Shown here: piece by piece, positions 8,446-53,957 of the stretch
How the letters are laid out: the number at the start of each line of letters is the position of its first letter
Numbering within the stretch: position 1 is the first letter of the stretch
Origin: Desulfobotulus mexicanus
Lineage (GTDB): Bacteria > Desulfobacterota > Desulfobacteria > Desulfobacterales > ASO4-4
Length of the DNA: 56,932 nucleotides
NCBI RefSeq assembly: GCF_006175995.1
Contig: NZ_VDMB01000021.1
Span: 1-56,932 of the forward strand
Direction of reading: 5' to 3'
Position numbers and translations under genes: made by a program
Notes under the pieces: model-generated
Told to the model about the DNA's origin: nothing
Databases searched by the model: none
The model's input: only the letters and a program-made list of their open reading frames with translations

Positions 8446-9701
8446 TGGAGAAAAAAGTGGATATGGATACCATTCGTGCGGTTGATCCGGAAATTGCCGA
8501 TTCCATGGCAAGGGAGCTTGGGCGTCAGCAGGGCAGTCTGGAGCTGATCGCCTCTGAAAATATTGTAAGTCCCGCGGTTATGGCTGCCCAGGGCAGCATC
8601 ATGACCAACAAGTATGCCGAGGGCTATCCTGCCAAGCGTTATTATGGCGGGTGCGAGTTTGTGGATGAGGCGGAAAACCTTGCCCTTGCAAGGGCAAAGG
8701 AGCTCTTTGGTGCCGTGTATGCCAATGTGCAGCCCCATTCCGGTTCCCAGGCTAACATGGCCTGTTACTTCGGCCTTCTGGAGCCGGGGGATAAAATTCT
8801 CGGCATGGATCTTTCCCACGGCGGCCATCTTACCCACGGGTCTCCTGTAAATTTTTCCGGCAGGTTATACAATTTTAACCATTACGGGGTTGCCAGGGAA
8901 ACGGGGCGCATTGATTATGATGCCCTTCAGAAGCAGGCCGAAGAATTCCGGCCCCGGATGATAGTTGCCGGAGCCAGCGCCTATCCCCGTATTCTGGATT
9001 TTGAGCGTTTTGCCGCCATTGCCGCATCCGTAGATGCCTTTCTGATGGTGGATATGGCCCATATCGCAGGTCTTGTGGCCGCAGGCGTGCATCCTTCTCC
9101 CATTCCCCATGCCACTGTGGTGACCAGTACCACCCATAAAACCCTGAGGGGACCCCGTGGTGGACTGATTCTGGCGGGTGAAGATAAGGCTGCCGTTTTC
9201 AACAAGCAGATTTTCCCCGGCATTCAGGGTGGCCCCCTGATGCATGTCATCGCAGCCAAGGCTGTGGCCTTCAAAGAAGCTTTGTCTGATGATTTTAAAG
9301 CATATCAGATGCGTGTGGTGGAAAATGCTGCTGCCATGGCTGCTTCTTTGATGGATGCGGGTCTTAATCTGGTGTCCGGCGGCACGGATAACCATCTGAT
9401 GCTGGTGGATCTCACCAATATCGGTATTACGGGTAAAGAGGCCGAAGCGGTGCTGGGGCAGGCGGGTATTACTGTTAACAAGAATACCGTACCCTTTGAA
9501 ACCCGCAGTCCCTTTGTTACTTCGGGTATCCGCATTGGTACGGCAGCTCTGGCCACCCGCGGTATGGGTGTTAAAGAAATGCAGACCATTGCTTCCTGGA
9601 TTGCCGATTGCGTGAAAAATCCCTCCGATGAAGCGAAGATAGCTTCCATACGCAGGGAAGTGGCGGCCCTTACGGATGGTTTTCCTCTGTTTAAGTACTG
9701 A
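8445..9701 (+). CDS. glyA: Serine hydroxymethyltransferase
   Basis: This 418-residue PLP enzyme converts serine and tetrahydrofolate to glycine and methylene-THF, feeding purine and thymidylate synthesis. The PLP lysine is in '[13 protein letters not shown]' (about residue 232), and the N-terminal '[13 protein letters not shown]' and '[18 protein letters not shown]' are diagnostic. The rpiB stop TGA shares bases with ATG at 8445 (TGATG); GTG at 8442 is an alternative start one codon earlier. The gene sits beside a dCMP deaminase, linking it to dTMP supply. Confidence 0.97.
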
Positions 9702-9725
9702 TGGTTTAAGATAAAAGGGGGTGTG

Positions 9726-10804: not shown

Positions 10805-11898
10805 ATGAAGATGACTTCTTCATGGAAAGGGCCCTTGAGCTGGCCTTGAAGGGCAGTGGCCGAACATCCCCCAACCCGCTGGTGGGTGCTGTTGTGGTCC
10901 GGAACGGTGAGACTGTGGGGGAAGGCTGGCATATGGCCTACGGTGGTCCCCATGCGGAGGTTCATGCCCTGAAAGCCGCCGGAGCTGCGGCTGAGGGAGC
11001 CACCATTTATGTTACCCTGGAGCCTTGTAACCATTTTGGAAAAACTCCGCCCTGTACCCAGGCCATTCTGGATGCAGGGATCAGGCGTGTGGTAATTGCC
11101 ATGGAAGATCCCAATCCCAAAGCAGCAGGGGGTATGGATCGTCTGCGTTCAGCCGGTGTGATTGTGGATACGGGGGTCTGTGAAGGCAAGGCCAGAAAGC
11201 TCAATGCTCCTTTTATTAAAAAGGTGGAAACGGGTCTGCCCTGGGTGGTGCTGAAGTGTGCAATGACCCTTGACGGCCGTGTTGCTACCCGCAGTGGTGA
11301 TTCAAAGTGGGTGACGGGTCCGGAGGCCAGGCAGTGGTGCCACAGGCATCTGCGGCAGCGGCTGGATGCCATTCTGGTGGGCAGTGCCACGGTGCGGGCG
11401 GATGACCCCAGTCTCACCTGCAGACTGCCCGAGGGTGGCGGCAGGGACCCTTTACGCATTGTGCTGGCATCCAGCCTGGATCTTTCCCCCGAGGCCAGAG
11501 TGTTGCGCCAGAAAAGTGATTCTGCTACCTTGCTTGTCTGTGCTCAAGGAGTTGCAGAATCCCGGAAGCAGCCTTTTTATGATCTGGGTGTCCGGATTCT
11601 TGAGGCTCCTTCAGGCAGTGATGGCAGGCTGGATTTTAAGGCTCTGATGCCCCTTCTGGCGGAACAGGGGATTCAGAGTCTTCTTATTGAGGGAGGGGGG
11701 CGAGTGGCTGCATCGGCCCTTAAAAGTGGTGTTGTGGATCAGGTGGTGTTTTTTTATGCTCCAAAAATCCTTGGCGGGGATGGTATTCCTGTGCTGGATG
11801 GTCCCGGTCCTGAGCGTATGGCCCAGTGTATGACCCTTTCGGGTATGGAGGTTTTTTCCTGTGGAGAAGATATCCGTGTGGAAGGGTATCCCGAATAA
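10801..11898 (+). CDS. ribD: Bifunctional diaminohydroxyphosphoribosylaminopyrimidine deaminase / aminouracil reductase
   Basis: The 365-residue protein performs the second and third steps of riboflavin synthesis. The N-terminal deaminase has its zinc site in 'GGPHAEVHAL' and 'LEPCNHFGKTPPC'. The C-terminal reductase starts around residue 150 ('LPWVVLKCAMTLDGRVAT') and contains 'LLIEGGGRVA'. It overlaps nrdR by four bases (ATGA). Its last codons and stop run into copy A of a dispersed repeat (see 11888-11980), so the very end of the protein may have been reshaped by that element. Confidence 0.97.
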   Translation: MNEDDFFMERALELALKGSGRTSPNPLVGAVVVRNGETVGEGWHMAYGGPHAEVHALKAAGAAAEGATIYVTLEPCNHFGKTPPCTQAILDAGIRRVVIAMEDPNPKAAGGMDRLRSAGVIVDTGVCEGKARKLNAPFIKKVETGLPWVVLKCAMTLDGRVATRSGDSKWVTGPEARQWCHRHLRQRLDAILVGSATVRADDPSLTCRLPEGGGRDPLRIVLASSLDLSPEARVLRQKSDSATLLVCAQGVAESRKQPFYDLGVRILEAPSGSDGRLDFKALMPLLAEQGIQSLLIEGGGRVAASALKSGVVDQVVFFYAPKILGGDGIPVLDGPGPERMAQCMTLSGMEVFSCGEDIRVEGYPE

Positions 11899-11980
11899 GA
11901 TTGCGTCACGGGCAAATAGCCTGGGGCCTGTGCATCTGTCTTGCAGGTATGGACTTGGAAAACTGTGCTGAACAGTTACG
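11888..11980 (-). repeat. Dispersed repeat, copy A (inside the riboflavin operon)
   Basis: Read on the minus strand, the copy starts near GTAACTGTTCAGCACA (11965-11980), passes through CACAGGCCCC and ends in CGTGACGCAATCTTATTCGG (11891-11910). The last 20 bases match copy C at 51317-51336 exactly, and the first 16 match copy B at 48577-48592 exactly. It fills almost the whole ribD-ribE gap and overlaps the ribD stop codon. Confidence 0.65.
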
Positions 11981-11999: not shown

Positions 12000-12662
12000 A
12001 TGTTTACGGGAATTATTGAAGGAATGGGCACTATCCGGGAGCTTACTGCGGCCGGAGAGGGTCGGCGGATGAGCGTGGAGGCGGATTTTGACCTTACCGG
12101 TACCCGCATCGGAGACAGTATTGCCGTAAACGGTGCCTGCCTGACAGCCGTGCATCTGGCTGGCAGGCGTTTTGTTGTGGATGTGGCTCCCGAGACCGTC
12201 ATGCGATCCCGTTTTAAAATTGCAAGAGTTGGTGAGCGGGTGAATCTGGAAAGGGCTCTGACCCTTTCATCCCGTCTGGACGGGCATATTGTAACGGGCC
12301 ATGTGGATGGTGAAGGCAGGATTCTTCACAGGGAGAGCCGGAGCAATGCCATTATTATCACCATAGGTGTTGAGGCTTCCCTTGCACGCTACCTGATTCC
12401 CAAGGGATCTGTGGCTGTGGATGGTACCAGCCTGACGGTGAATACCTGTGATAAAGATCGTTTTTCTGTTTCCATTATCCCCCATACCGCAGGGCTTTCC
12501 ACTGTGGCTGTCAGGGAAGTGGGAGAAAGCGTGAATATAGAAACGGATATTGTGGGAAAATATATAGAGCGTTTCATCACAATGCCCGGTGGTGCAGGGG
12601 AGAAAAAGCCGGCATCTTCCGGTATTGATCTTTCTTTTCTGGCAAAAAACGGGTTTCTGTAG
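12000..12662 (+). CDS. ribE: Riboflavin synthase, alpha subunit
   Basis: The 220-residue enzyme dismutates two 6,7-dimethyl-8-ribityllumazine molecules to riboflavin. It shows the duplicated lumazine-binding fold: the first repeat starts [10 protein letters not shown] with 'VNGACLTAV', and the second begins 'GHVDGEG' near residue 100 with 'VDGTSLTVN'. ATG at 12000 follows TTTAAGGAGCATAA, a strong ribosome-binding site. A repeat copy separates it from ribD, and no FMN riboswitch is visible in that gap. The symbol ribC is used in some species. Confidence 0.96.
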
Positions 12663-19874: not shown

Positions 19875-19937
19875 TGCTGAATAGCTGCTAAAAAGGGTTG
19901 CCTGAACGGAACGGGGGATAGAAAGAGACGGAAGGCC

Positions 19938-22116: not shown

Positions 22117-22157
22117 AAAAAAGGGTCTCTGGAAGTTATTTCCAAGGACCCTTTTTT
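22117..22157. terminator. Terminator between rel and rpmB (probably works both ways)
   Basis: A stem of GGGTC and TGGAA elements pairs with its complement across 22123-22152. It is flanked by six A on the left and six T on the right, so it can terminate rel on the + strand and rpmB on the - strand. Confidence 0.85.
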
Positions 22158-47029: not shown

Positions 47030-48577
47030 ATGCAACGTTTTGACATACGGGTTTCTCCGGAAGAGATGGAAGACAAGGAAAAGCTCCACCACATGATCCT
47101 TGCCAGGGCAGGCTCCGGAGATCCAAAGCGTTTTGACTGGCGCATCCGTAAACAGTCTTTAGATGCCAGGGGCAGAAAGCCCCTTTTTGTTCTTCTGATT
47201 GAATGCTGGGAGGGTGAAGCTCCACCTTTGGAAAAGATCCGGGGCTTTGAACCAGAAGCCCTTTCCGGCAAAAGGGTTGTGATTACTGGTGCCGGACCTG
47301 CGGGGTATTTTGCGGCCTTAAGTCTTCTGGAAAGGGGCATCAAGCCCCTTGTGCTGGAACGGGGAAAGGATGTGCGTTCCCGTCGTTTTGACATCAAGAC
47401 CCTGTACAAAGGAGAGGTGCATCCCCACTCCAACTATTGTTTTGGCGAAGGAGGGGCTGGCACCTATTCCGACGGCAAGCTCTATACCCGTGCCACAAAA
47501 AGGGGAGATATCCGAAGGGTACTGGATCTCTTCTGCTCCTTTGGTGCCAGTGAGGCCATCCGTACTGAAGCCCATCCCCACATCGGCTCCAACCGCCTTC
47601 CGGCCATTGTAAAATCCATGCGGGAAGCCATTATAGCGGCTGGTGGAGAGGTTCACTTCAACGCCTTTGTGAAGGATTTCCTCTTTGAAGACGGACGTTT
47701 TAAGGCTGCTGTTCTGGAAGACGGGGAAAGGGTGGAGGGTGATGCCCTGATCCTTGCCACGGGTCATTCGGCCCGGGATATCTATGCCCTTCTCCATGAA
47801 AAGGGCATCCTTGTGGAGGCCAAGCCCTTTGCCATGGGAGTGCGCATTGAGCATCCCCAGGAAAGCATTGACCGGATTTTCTATGGCACATCGCCCCGTC
47901 ACCCTGCCCTGCCGCCCGCTTCCTACAGGATCAGCTGTCAGGCTTCGGGCAGGGGAGTTTTTTCCTTTTGCATGTGTCCGGGAGGCTCTGTGGTTCCCGC
48001 ATCCACAGCACCGGGGGAGCTGGTTTTAAATGGCATGAGCTTTGCCGAGCGCAGCGGCCCCTTTGCCAATGCAGGTCTTGTAACGGAAATACGGCTTAGG
48101 GATCTTGAAGATCCGGAGAACAATCCCTTTGCAGGGCTTCATTTTCAGCAGGCGCTGGAACAGTCCCTTTTCAGCAAAGGAGATGGCAGCCAGAAAGCCC
48201 CTGCCCAACGGGCTTCTGACTTTGTGGCTGCGCGGCTGTCTGCGGATCTTCCAAAGACATCCTATATTCCCGGCATATACAGTGCCCCCCTGCATCAGTG
48301 GCTGCCGGACGTGGTGGCAAAGGGACTTTCCGAGGGTCTTCGCCTTCTGGACCGCCGCCACCGGGGATATCTGAGTGAAGAAGCTACCTTACTTGCGGTG
48401 GAATCCCGCACCAGCTCACCCCTCCGTATTCCAAGGGATTCACGAACCCGTATGCATCCGGAGGTGTCCGGACTTTTCCCCTGCGGAGAAGGGGCAGGCT
48501 ATGCAGGTGGGATCGCATCTGCAGCCATGGACGGCATGGCCAGTGCCGAAGCCGTGGAAAGGTATCTTGCCATTTAG
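47030..48577 (+). CDS. Uncharacterised FAD-dependent dehydrogenase (COG2509 type)
   Basis: The 515-residue flavoprotein has a short N-terminal domain (about 1-80, 'DWRIRKQSLDARGRKPLF'). A dinucleotide-binding 'VVITGAGPAGYFAALSLLERG' follows at about residue 84, then 'NYCFGEGGAGTYSDGKLYTR', 'ILATGHSARDIYALL' and the C-terminal FAD loop 'LFPCGEGAGYAGGIASAAMDG'. These motifs define a widespread family of unknown substrate. ATG at 47030 lacks a strong Shine-Dalgarno. The stop codon lies at the edge of repeat copy B. The gene is convergent with the GNAT gene. Confidence 0.9.
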   Translation: MQRFDIRVSPEEMEDKEKLHHMILARAGSGDPKRFDWRIRKQSLDARGRKPLFVLLIECWEGEAPPLEKIRGFEPEALSGKRVVITGAGPAGYFAALSLLERGIKPLVLERGKDVRSRRFDIKTLYKGEVHPHSNYCFGEGGAGTYSDGKLYTRATKRGDIRRVLDLFCSFGASEAIRTEAHPHIGSNRLPAIVKSMREAIIAAGGEVHFNAFVKDFLFEDGRFKAAVLEDGERVEGDALILATGHSARDIYALLHEKGILVEAKPFAMGVRIEHPQESIDRIFYGTSPRHPALPPASYRISCQASGRGVFSFCMCPGGSVVPASTAPGELVLNGMSFAERSGPFANAGLVTEIRLRDLEDPENNPFAGLHFQQALEQSLFSKGDGSQKAPAQRASDFVAARLSADLPKTSYIPGIYSAPLHQWLPDVVAKGLSEGLRLLDRRHRGYLSEEATLLAVESRTSSPLRIPRDSRTRMHPEVSGLFPCGEGAGYAGGIASAAMDGMASAEAVERYLAI

Positions 48578-48724
48578 TAACTGTTCAGCACACTTTTTCT
48601 TCGGTAAATCGAATGCCTTTAATCAGGTGCATGGACAACCGAACCATTTGTTCATGACGCAATTTTTCAGGATAAAAGATGCTGAATCATTACGCCCGAT
48701 AATGCAAAACCTGTCAGGCAGGTC
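48575..48724 (+). repeat. Dispersed repeat, copy B
   Basis: The element starts GTAACTGTTCAGCACA right at the stop of the FAD-dehydrogenase gene, passes through TTTGTTCATGACGCAATTTT (48647-48666) and continues 'GCTGAATC ... CAAAACCTGTCAGGCAGG' to overlap the stop codon of the GNAT gene (48714). It thus fills the gap between two convergent genes. The shared blocks with copies A and C are in the same order. Confidence 0.6.
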
Positions 48725-50407: not shown

Positions 50408-51169
50408 ATGATGAAAACAGAACATGACACTGCCGTATTCACCCAGACAGGAAGGGTTCCCTATTCCCATGTGGGGATGGACGGATACTTAAAACCCGTA
50501 GCCGTACTGAATCTCTGTCAGGACATTGCCAGCCGCCATGCCTTTGCTATGGGCGTTTCGGCCCTGCATCTGGCACCCCAGGACAAAATATGGGTGGTGA
50601 ACAGATATCACTTTGATTTTTATCGATTCCCGGCCTGGGATGAGGTCTTTACCCTGAGGTCCTGGCGGGCACCCCTTCGCAGGCTCTATGAGATCAGGCG
50701 CTTTGAATTGTTTGATGAAAAGGACCAGATTCTCATGGGAAGCACCTGTGCCTGGGTGCTGGTGGATAAAAATACGGGGAAGCCTGTACGACTGTCCAGG
50801 GCCATGCCTCCAGAGCTGTGCGAAAATGACGGCAGCATTCCCTTTGATATGGAAGAAATCCCCCTGCCTCCGGATACGGCCCGGACCATGGATTTTCAAG
50901 TACTTCAGGAAGATATGGATTACAACCGCCACGCCAACAATGCAGCCTACCTCAAGTGGGCGCTGGAAGCCCTTTCGCCATCGGAGCTTTTTCCCTGCCG
51001 CATCAGAAAGCTTGATATCCGATACCACCATGATATCGGCCCTCCCCGCAGCGTCAGGGTACACACAACAAGGGAAGATACAGAAAATGGGCTGCGCTGT
51101 GTGCAGGCCATCCGTGCGGCGGATACGGGGGAGCTGCTGACGGGTATCCGGATGGATCTCAGCCTTTAA
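50408..51169 (+). CDS. Acyl-ACP thioesterase
   Basis: This 253-residue enzyme releases fatty acids from acyl-ACP and has two hotdog halves. The catalytic stretch is in 'QEDMDYNRHANNAAYLKW' in the second half (D-x-N-x-H pattern), and 'YSHVGMDGYLKPVAVLNLCQD' with 'RYHFDFYRFPAWDE' marks the first. It matches the FatA-like family found in anaerobic bacteria. ATG at 50408 or 50411 is the start. It follows the tautomerase gene by 67 bases and is closed by a region containing repeats. Confidence 0.9.
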   Translation: MMKTEHDTAVFTQTGRVPYSHVGMDGYLKPVAVLNLCQDIASRHAFAMGVSALHLAPQDKIWVVNRYHFDFYRFPAWDEVFTLRSWRAPLRRLYEIRRFELFDEKDQILMGSTCAWVLVDKNTGKPVRLSRAMPPELCENDGSIPFDMEEIPLPPDTARTMDFQVLQEDMDYNRHANNAAYLKWALEALSPSELFPCRIRKLDIRYHHDIGPPRSVRVHTTREDTENGLRCVQAIRAADTGELLTGIRMDLSL

Positions 51170-51210
51170 CGGCAGGCCATTCTGTTTATTGCTGCGGAAG
51201 AATTTCAGAT

Positions 51211-51250
51211 AAAAAACTCCGGACCCTTTCCTTAAAAAAGGTGTCCGGAG
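51211..51250 (-). terminator. Terminator hairpin downstream of the 2,4-dienoyl-CoA reductase-like gene
   Basis: CTCCGGAC (51217-51224) pairs perfectly with GTCCGGAG (51243-51250), and on the minus strand the stem is followed by six T. It lies 340 bases past the stop of the minus-strand gene and just beyond the thioesterase stop on the other strand, where the T-run is missing. Confidence 0.7.
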
Positions 51251-51269
51251 CATTTATGGCGGGAGATTA

Positions 51270-51385
51270 AAACCTGTTCAGACTCAGTTGATATGAGGCA
51301 TACAGGCCCTTTGTTCGTGACGCAATCTTATTCGGGAGCTTCTTGTCCTGTGCTGAATCGCCAAAACTTGTCGGCACAGGCAGCT
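51270..51385 (+). repeat. Dispersed repeat, copy C
   Basis: The copy begins with CCTGTTCAG, passes ACAGGCCCTTTGTTCGTGAC and CGCAATCTTATTCGGGA (51310-51337) and continues with 'GTGCTGAATCGCCAAAACTTG' to GGCAGC at 51384. Twenty bases (51317-51336) are identical to copy A on the opposite strand. It is the left arm of a long inverted repeat with 51419-51524. Confidence 0.65.
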
Positions 51386-51418
51386 TAAGCTTTTGTTTTA
51401 CCATAGCAACTTTAGTAC

Positions 51419-51524
51419 GCTGCCTTTTGTGCCGACTTCAGACAGTTGGCGATTCTTTACGCACAGGCCTTCAAAGCTCTGATCCGAAACGATTGCAATG
51501 TCACTCACAAAAGGCCTGTACACC
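51419..51524 (-). repeat. Dispersed repeat, degenerate inverted copy D
   Basis: Read on the minus strand it repeats the block order of copy C: TGTACAGGCC, 'TTTTGTGAGTGAC', 'GCAATCGTTTCGG', GAATCGCCAA, GTCGGCACA and GGCAGC. GAATCGCCAA (51355-51364 versus 51446-51455) and GTCGGCACA (51370-51378 versus 51428-51436) are perfect inverted matches. With copy C it can form a hairpin of about 220 bases with a loop at 51385-51418. Confidence 0.6.
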
Positions 51525-51593
51525 TTCTCAAAACGCTCGTTTCTCCTGAGAAGTCAGGGCTACAGAAGCAATTAAGCATAAAAAACAAAGATT

Positions 51594-53615
51594 TTACACA
51601 GCCCTTCCAGCAGCATAACCCTGATGCACGGCGTCAAAGGCAAGGCCAATTTTTGCCGCATCACCGATTACCTGACAGGAAATGCCAAGGCCTTCCACGG
51701 TTTCCTTCAGTGCGGAAACGGGCTTTGAGCCTGCCGCCAATACCACGGAGTCCGCAGGAATCAGCTCAATACCCTCGCTGCCTTCCACCTTCACACCGTC
51801 TTTTGTGATTTCAAGGGCTTTTGTGGTCACGTCAGTGCGAATACCAATACGCTTCATCTCCTGCATCATGGTCCAGCGGGTGGATTTGCCGATATCTTTG
51901 CCCACAGACTGGGTCATTTCGATGAGGGTCACGTTCTTGGTGCCCTTTGTGGCCAGCTCGTAGAGTTTATCCACGTCATCGGCCCTGTTCACAAAGAGAA
52001 ACTTCAGCTCTTCTCCGGAAAGGGTACCCTTTTCCCCAAGGAAGATGGACGTTTCCACCCCCACGGCACCCCCGCCGATGACCACCACGTTTTTACCCGT
52101 ATGGGCCCGGTCTTCCAGCACATCCCAGGCCTGAGCCACATGGGGAAGATCTGCACCGGGAATGGGCGGAGAGATGGGTTCCGCACCGGTGGCAAGGATC
52201 ACGGCATCGGGCTTTTCTTTTTCCAGCAGGGCCTTATCCACTGTGGTTTTAAGCATAACCCGGATATTGTTCACCTGTACCTGGGTGGCAAGATCCTTTG
52301 CAAGCTCTGCAAATTCTTCACGCCCCGGAGGTGCGGCTGCCAGATAAAGCTGACCTCCCAGTCGGCTGGAAGCCTCAAAAAGGGTAACGTCATGGCCCTT
52401 TTCCCTGGCTGACAGAGCAGCACTCATGCCAGCAGCACCACCGCCGATGACAAAGACCTTTTTAGCCTTATCTGTCTGAACCGCAGCCATTTTAAATTCA
52501 TAGCCAGCTCTCGGGTTACAGAGACATTCCACATGCTTGAATTTAAAGAGATTGTCAAAGCATCCCTGGGCGCAGGCAATGCAGTGAATGACCTCATTTT
52601 CCCGGCCTTCTTCCGCTTTTTTGGGCAGGAAGGCATCAGCAATGAGGCTGCGGCCCATGGCCACCATGTCGCACATGTCATCGGCAATAAGCCTGCGGGC
52701 GTCTTTGGGGTCGTTGATACGGTGGCTGGCAATGACAGGGATGGAAACCACTTCCTTAATGCCCCTTGCCAGATAGGCATACACGCCTCTGGGAACGCTG
52801 GTGACAATCTGGGGAATGCGGGCCTCGTGCCACCCCACATTGATGCATACCGCATCCACAAGGCCGGAATCGGAAAGTTTTCTTGCATATTCCCGCAGCT
52901 CCACCCGGCCCATGCCTTCGGGCATGAGGTCGTTACCGTTCATGCGGACCACAACGGGATAATCTGACCCTACGGTTTTTCTGATGGCTGAGAAAATTTC
53001 CATGGCAAAACGGCAGCGGTTTTCAAAGGGACCACCGTATTCGTCTTCCCGTTTATTGGTCAAAGGAGAAAGGAATTCGCTGATTAGATAGCCCGTGCCG
53101 CTCAGGATTTCCACGCCGTCAAAACCGGCAGCCTTCACACGGCCTGCGGCAGCAGCAAAATCCGCGACAGTCTGATCAATGTCTTCCTTTGTCATTTCCC
53201 TTGGAACTTCACGGGTGAGATTGGAAGCAATGGCAGACGGTGCAACGGGCTGTTTACCATTGAGCAGCATGGAATGGTTGTAACGGCCTGCATGGTTGAG
53301 CTGAACCAGAGCACGACAATCATGCTGTTTTATGGCATCGGCCATTTTTTTAAGGCCGGGAATGTGGGCATCCTCGTGGGCACCGATGTGGGTGACGTTG
53401 GCGGAAAGTTCATTAACGGAAGCGTAACCCACGCAGATGGCACCGGCACCACCTCTGGCCCTTTCCTCATAAAAGGCCGTAACCTGATCGGATACTTCAT
53501 AATTTTCACACATACCAAGGTGCATGGCAGGCATATAAATACGGTTTTTTACCGTCATGCTGCCGATCTGGATGGGCTGGAACAGGGGATCGATTCCCCG
53601 AATCTGGGTGGTCAT
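51594..53615 (-). CDS. 2,4-dienoyl-CoA reductase-like / NADH:flavin oxidoreductase
   Basis: This 673-residue enzyme has the FadH/enoate-reductase layout. An N-terminal old-yellow-enzyme TIM barrel (about 1-350, 'HAGRYNHSMLLNGKQPVAPS', 'GFDGVEILSGTGYLISEFLSP') is followed by a 4Fe-4S cluster site 'CIACAQGCFDNLF' with a further Cys in 'HVECLCNPRAG'. FAD- and NAD-binding domains follow ('VFVIGGGAAGMSAALSAREKG', 'VVVIGGGAVGVETSIFL'). It probably reduces an enoyl-type substrate. ATG at 53615 follows AAAGGAGGCAGT; a promoter lies about 165 bases upstream. Confidence 0.92.
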   Translation of the reverse strand: MTTQIRGIDPLFQPIQIGSMTVKNRIYMPAMHLGMCENYEVSDQVTAFYEERARGGAGAICVGYASVNELSANVTHIGAHEDAHIPGLKKMADAIKQHDCRALVQLNHAGRYNHSMLLNGKQPVAPSAIASNLTREVPREMTKEDIDQTVADFAAAAGRVKAAGFDGVEILSGTGYLISEFLSPLTNKREDEYGGPFENRCRFAMEIFSAIRKTVGSDYPVVVRMNGNDLMPEGMGRVELREYARKLSDSGLVDAVCINVGWHEARIPQIVTSVPRGVYAYLARGIKEVVSIPVIASHRINDPKDARRLIADDMCDMVAMGRSLIADAFLPKKAEEGRENEVIHCIACAQGCFDNLFKFKHVECLCNPRAGYEFKMAAVQTDKAKKVFVIGGGAAGMSAALSAREKGHDVTLFEASSRLGGQLYLAAAPPGREEFAELAKDLATQVQVNNIRVMLKTTVDKALLEKEKPDAVILATGAEPISPPIPGADLPHVAQAWDVLEDRAHTGKNVVVIGGGAVGVETSIFLGEKGTLSGEELKFLFVNRADDVDKLYELATKGTKNVTLIEMTQSVGKDIGKSTRWTMMQEMKRIGIRTDVTTKALEITKDGVKVEGSEGIELIPADSVVLAAGSKPVSALKETVEGLGISCQVIGDAAKIGLAFDAVHQGYAAGRAV

Positions 53616-53808: not shown

Positions 53809-53957
53809 ATTTACGATTGCTAACAGCCATCTCTGCCAGACAGCGGCAAAGGAACCCAGCCTGTTTACCTGCGACGCAGTCCGGCACTCAAACTAAAAAA
53901 CAGGCCCTTTAGGGGAGCAAAAATGCCTAAGGATCCTGAACGCCGGATTCGGGAGCT

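Follow-up and report, generated by a model that had tools for sequence, protein, structure and literature searches.

A hairpin of Desulfobotulus mexicanus as a probable worn copy of a gene-less MITE family with IS66-type ends, with an interior that appears to have flipped in place

The REP/BIME sequences and the Correia elements are dispersed palindromic intergenic repeats, as are the elements considered here, and in plastid genomes small hairpin-associated inversions leave the stretch between two inverted repeats in either orientation among relatives. MITEAba12, as reported in PMC6382973, measures 111-114 bp, has a 9-bp target-site duplication (TSD) and folds at about -24 to -27 kcal/mol. For ISDge4, an IS66 element of the ISBst12 group, the account in PMC12898284 gives the ends GTAACTGCTCAGCA / GTGACTACTCAGCA and an 8-bp repeat, and two Paracoccus IS66 elements with 8-bp repeats are presented in PMC3281130. 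In the open-access literature, judged from titles and the beginnings of abstracts, no description was recognised as the family analysed below.

The locus under study lies in the window (the whole stretch of 56,932 nucleotides that was analysed), in which an imperfect inverted repeat of about 220 bases, built from two copies of a dispersed element, had been predicted. The inverted repeat was present at the expected place, and both perfect arms (GAATCGCCAA at 51355 with TTGGCGATTC at 51446, and GTCGGCACA at 51370 with TGTGCCGAC at 51428) were exact inverted matches around a loop of exactly 34 bases. At least six blocks in mirror order had been announced; besides the two perfect arms seven more were found, namely CCTGTGC 51347 / GCACAGG 51461, GGCAGC 51379 / GCTGCC 51419, GAGCTT 51336 / AAGCTC 51474, TTCGG 51331 / CCGAA 51484, GCAATC 51322 / GATTGC 51491, GTGAC 51317 / GTCAC 51500 and TACAGGCC 51301 / GGCCTGTA 51513. 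By arm pairing, the left arm occupied 51296-51384 and the right arm 51419-51524, with the central 34-base interval between GGCAGC and GCTGCC at 51385-51418 (all on the + strand). The arm-to-arm alignment contained 74 identities, 8 mismatches and 43 gap positions, and an ungapped repeat finder applied to 50800-52000 listed zero inverted repeats, since small insertions distinguish the two arms.

When 51280-51540 was folded as RNA, the energy obtained was -107 kcal/mol (z -9.64), and 0 of 200 shuffles (mean -65.6, sd 4.3 kcal/mol) reached the native fold. The extent of about 220 bases was too narrow, because the folded hairpin, the core of what is read here as a degenerate MITE copy, paired from 51281 to 51538 (outermost pair, no strand assigned). 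Within it, family matches delimited a shared core at 51307-51511 (+ strand) of a rarer variant, type C, with GAATCGCC / GGCGATTC arms, both of which differ from those of the common type. The identity of this core, among the matches listed, was 82-89% in the genome of the window (G000) and 83-93% in a second genome (G001), and among the longer matches listed in a third genome (G002) it was 77-90%. The stretch at 51270-51292 (+ strand), which contains CTGTTCAG and agrees in 9 of 16 letters by eye, may be a remnant of the left terminal inverted repeat (TIR). No target duplication, suggested for about 51297 and 51524, was found for the window copy, whose outer ends are decayed. The window copy is placed in the family by core homology only, because its own TIRs and TSD are gone. 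The hairpin is flanked by a convergent gene pair, an acyl-ACP thioesterase and an oxidoreductase.

Intact members of the family run from GTAAYTRTTCAGCACA to its complement, with TIRs at both ends. Allowing at most one mismatch, the terminal repeat occurred 136 times in G000, 317 times in G001 and 20 times in G002, and the reversed-pattern control gave 0 occurrences. The fetched loci yielded 187 unique elements of 60-600 bp bounded by TIRs (122 from G001, 53 from G000 and 12 from G002); their length was mostly about 347 bp, with 112 of them between 340 and 359 bp. The flanking duplications that the original prediction had proposed to look for were present across the family, since the 8-bp flanks were identical in 77 of the 187 elements (0.27 expected) and matched at 7 of 8 positions in a further 43 (1.42 expected). 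No peak was seen in these elements at any other duplication length, and the target duplications were A+T-rich. In the type A consensus no open frame exceeded 112 codons, and a coding origin of the frame of that length was rejected, as it had no Pfam match.

In loci of at least 5,500 bases, no TIR-bounded member lay within a called ORF. With a simple ORF caller, the neighbours of 120 members were tandem in 73 cases, convergent in 24 and divergent in 23, against 390, 132 and 127, respectively, for all 649 neighbouring ORF pairs. A terminator role was considered and rejected, with one terminator-like site against 0.5 expected and convergent neighbours not in excess.

Furthermore, at 10 distinct sites a TIR-bounded member stood opposite an orthologous place that is empty. 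The 11 comparisons available there showed an overlap of 8 in nine cases and of 9 and 7 in one case each, which confirmed insertion; four further empty rows have approximate borders only, and two repeat elements already counted. Three of the empty sites are in the window (no strand assigned): 9698-9705, where the G001 ortholog is a 347-bp member flanked on either side by CTGATGTT; 19886-19893, where it is a 183-bp member; and 22117-22123 (overlap 7), where it is a 236-bp member. At L118 4300-4643, L040 and L274 6628-6635, one and the same 8-bp target has the element in one orientation in G001 and in the other in G002, and is vacant in G000. Being short and gene-less, with TIRs, 8-bp duplications and empty orthologous sites, the dispersed element is a MITE of a new family, in a class where gene-less MITEs with IS-like ends are already known. 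Of the readings offered in the original prediction, that of a non-autonomous transposon thus holds for the family, with its many dispersed copies.

Other remains of the family were located in the window. An internally deleted copy of 117 bp at 48577-48693 (+ strand) has terminal repeats with 0 and 3 mismatches, and its flanking 8 bp match at 5 of 8 positions by eye; its first base is the last stop-codon base of ORF 47030-48577, a FAD-dependent protein by Pfam. A one-ended fragment with a perfect terminal repeat at 11889-11979 (- strand) lies about 20 bases ahead of ORF 12000-12662. A degenerate fragment at 53826-53950 (+ strand) carries an alternative inner hairpin of the CCGGCACTCAA type.

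The window hairpin had at least 41 matches in G000 (40 of 134 first-look candidates scored), at least 40 in G001 (40 of 264 scored) and at least 29 in G002, some of them short pieces (40 of 41 scored), and none in the 55 genomes of other genera of the same order. An exact-pattern search of the species collection returned 102 stretches, every one from Desulfobotulus alkaliphilus ASO4-4, and the three carrier genomes appear to belong to a single genus, Desulfobotulus. Phage and plasmid records contained no match to the window hairpin, and viral contigs no family match in an exact-pattern search. The copies, with their TSDs, were spread over many contigs, unlike integron attC sites, which form arrays beside an integrase.

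The ends of the family and its 8-bp duplication fit insertion sequences of the IS66/ISBst12 type, and on this likeness a transposase of the IS66 type was probably what once mobilised the family. Ends of this kind are carried by some IS66 transposons from other genera of the order. One of them, L236, is 1718 bp long, with ends GTAACCATTCAGCGAAATTTT / GTAACTATTCAGCAAA, identical 8-bp flanks GGATTTTT and a protein assigned to IS66 by NCBIfam. L254 has ends similar to those of the family and flanks that do not match, and L238 and L253 show likeness at a single end. GTAA and 8 bp alone are unspecific, because other IS66 elements of the same order (L226-L230, L240 and L245) carry other GTAA ends. 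An IS66 element of D. alkaliphilus (L244:212-2117) has perfect ends GTAACTTCTCAATAAGTGTAGG, partly like those of the family, and unmatched 8-bp flanks.

An autonomous parent with the family's ends was not found in the three draft genomes. There was no PF03050 transposase gene in G000 or G002, and the single one of G001 (533 aa) has ends GTAACTTCTCAATAAG, unlike those of the family. A 63-residue relic of an ISBst12-like IS66 transposase (L295, G000:C2:120749-120919) shows 46-49% identity over about 60 residues, and the 3.2 kb fetched around it contained no convincing terminal repeat. The interior of the family had nothing in common with the fetched IS66 loci. We infer an IS66-type parent from the likeness of the ends. 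Two candidates were rejected as autonomous elements: L147, which runs across a long host-like ORF, and L199, in which an IS630-family insertion sequence (L199:407-1444) is nested in a G000 family member. A long TIR-bounded candidate, L146 2438-4886, has flanks matching at 7 of 8 positions.

The type A consensus (96 copies, 347 bp) folded nearly end to end, with 126 pairs and -153.8 kcal/mol, and the individual type A copies had a mean of -146 kcal/mol (range -165 to -84). The outer arms are common to the members and the inner hairpins can vary between them. One of the inner hairpins has CCGGCACTCAAG-type ends and was also found inserted in L003; a short hairpin whose ends resemble CCGGCACTCAAG / CTTGAGTGCCGG, seen inside family members at 53826-53950 of the window and in L003, L054 and L057, is possibly a separate MITE. 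In the subtype fold test, performed on 5 type C and 59 type AB cores after excluding the 14 of 78 that fitted neither, the within-type folds reached -80.4 (C) and -86.7 (AB), and the cross-type chimeras were weaker (-74.0 and -69.5).

The orientation of the element was compared, by hand tally, at 25 occupied orthologous places where both elements had at least 230 bp: 14 had the same orientation, 9 were inverted and 2 were unclear. The window copy is among the inverted ones. Its G002 ortholog, L002, has flanks collinear over 2.9 kb, and its hairpin aligns, at 90%, in the reverse orientation only; the bases to the left of the hairpin, including CTGTTCAGACTC, are collinear and the interior is flipped, which puts the left breakpoint somewhere from about 51293 to 51315. 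L002 was the top match of the window hairpin besides itself in the 58 genomes searched. In the pair L220/L003, which has intact ends, about 33 and 37 outer bases, including a TTAG end, are in place and the interior is reversed. This combination of collinear outer sequence and flipped interior in both pairs points to inversion in place, so that some copies, that of the window included, appear to have been flipped over where they stood. Inversion in place is further favoured by the inverted pair L263/L290, each the top match of the other in the whole-element comparison, with a tie in one direction. For most of the remaining inverted pairs, separate insertion events are possible. Misassembly is a lesser worry at the window copy, in which exact matches between the arms extend for about 10 bases, although each of the three assemblies is a draft.

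Two of the readings offered in the original prediction compete with a mobile element for the hairpin itself. Two copies of a shorter element inserted head to head would correspond to the arms as they had been named there, copies C and D; these are instead the two arms of one element, as intact TIR-bounded members hold both arms between one pair of ends and within one 8-bp duplication, and this already refuted arrangement is given next to no weight. A structured RNA, for instance a regulatory or processed hairpin RNA selected and spread in many copies, would agree with the very stable fold of the window hairpin and with the core subtypes AB and C, which change in both arms together. The covariation check also gave it something: the 96 type A copies had 24 two-sided pairs against 17.2 in shuffled alignments (2 of 300 reached this value) and 60 two-sided cells against 31.6 (0 of 300), with a divergence of 0.052 at paired and 0.091 at unpaired positions. 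Nevertheless, this modest type A excess is not read as RNA selection, because the copies are closely related and such a shuffle test is thereby inflated, and the 10 type B copies had no excess (2 two-sided pairs against 4.0 shuffled). The arm changes were at the level of subtypes only, and the mixed-subtype alignment gave a consensus of only -24 kcal/mol and no usable structure. At gathering scores Rfam matched nothing at the hairpin and only a tRNA elsewhere in the window, the gene context was unbiased, and insertion with TSDs accounts for the spread. A structured RNA is considered improbable, and the MITE reading is preferred.

As for the inverted orientations, each of them might have arisen by a separate insertion at a favoured site, without any flip in place. 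The A+T-rich target duplications agree with this, and independent insertion is likely for some pairs, because L082/L183 joins different subtypes and the L118/L040 site is empty in the third genome, G000. Moreover, in the whole-element comparison 8 of the 9 inverted pairs were not mutual best matches and only L263/L290 ranked 1 in both directions (one tied); with padded borders, the window pair ranked 2/12 and 39/46, and L220/L003, where L003 has a nested insertion, 73/112 and 42/46. Several of the 14 agreeing pairs were also not rank 1. Against independent insertion throughout stand the collinear outer ends of L220/L003, TTAG end included, around a flipped interior, and the finding that L002 is at the orthologous place of the window copy and has the sole type C core of the 8 near-full ones obtained from G002; insertion as the sole cause is therefore considered unlikely. 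An orientation switch that regulates the neighbours, flipped either by arm recombination or by a dedicated recombinase, would be compatible with 9 of 25 orthologous occupied places being inverted and with breakpoints internal to the element in both the L220/L003 pair and the pair formed by the window copy and L002. However, the gene context of the elements is that of all neighbouring ORF pairs, and 51150-51650 has no sigma-70-like site, which makes such a switch improbable.

The best explanation, to which we assign a probability of about 88%, is that the window hairpin represents a decayed copy of a gene-less hairpin MITE with IS66-type ends, mobilised in trans and with its interior flipped. 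An IS66-type transposase, suggested by the likeness of the ends, would have recognised the GTAAYTRTTCAGCACA ends in trans, and the element would have been inserted at A+T-rich intergenic sites, generating the 8-bp duplication. Of this, the ends, the duplicated 8 bp and the empty sites are observed. As inverted repeats of each other, the arms may then recombine or allow template switching, and so flip the interior in place. At the window locus the flip, visible as a difference in sequence, seems to have followed the split from G002. The dispersed repeat of the window is in this way accounted for, a family with IS66-type ends and an unusually long hairpin joins the MITEs of bacteria, and the three related genomes, in which places of one element are empty, occupied in the same orientation or inverted, allow the insertion of long hairpins and their inversion in place to be told apart and dated. 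A broader proposal, put forward tentatively and at somewhat less than even odds, is that the full-length hairpin MITEs of the genus repeatedly invert in place via their imperfect arms, within the divergence of congeneric species, and swap matched inner hairpin modules whole. If so, tens to more than 100 intergenic sites per genome could take either orientation.

Compared with the known systems, the inversions resemble those of plastid hairpins, with the difference that they concern a dispersed bacterial mobile element. REPs are far shorter than this family, and Correia elements duplicate TA, whereas the TSD here is 8 bp. The IS66 elements of the ISBst12 type, ISDge4 as described in PMC12898284 and L236, share with the family the GTAACTGCTCAGCA-kind ends and the 8-bp duplication; the family differs in having no transposase gene and an interior that is not common to them. 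MITECca01 (IS982 type, PMC9769881) and MITEAba12 (ISAba12 type, PMC6382973) are, in the accounts cited, also short, gene-less and present in many copies with IS-like ends, but they belong to other IS families and have a resident parent, which was not found for the family described here. Compared with MITEAba12, this family is mostly about 347 bp long and its type A copies average -146 kcal/mol.
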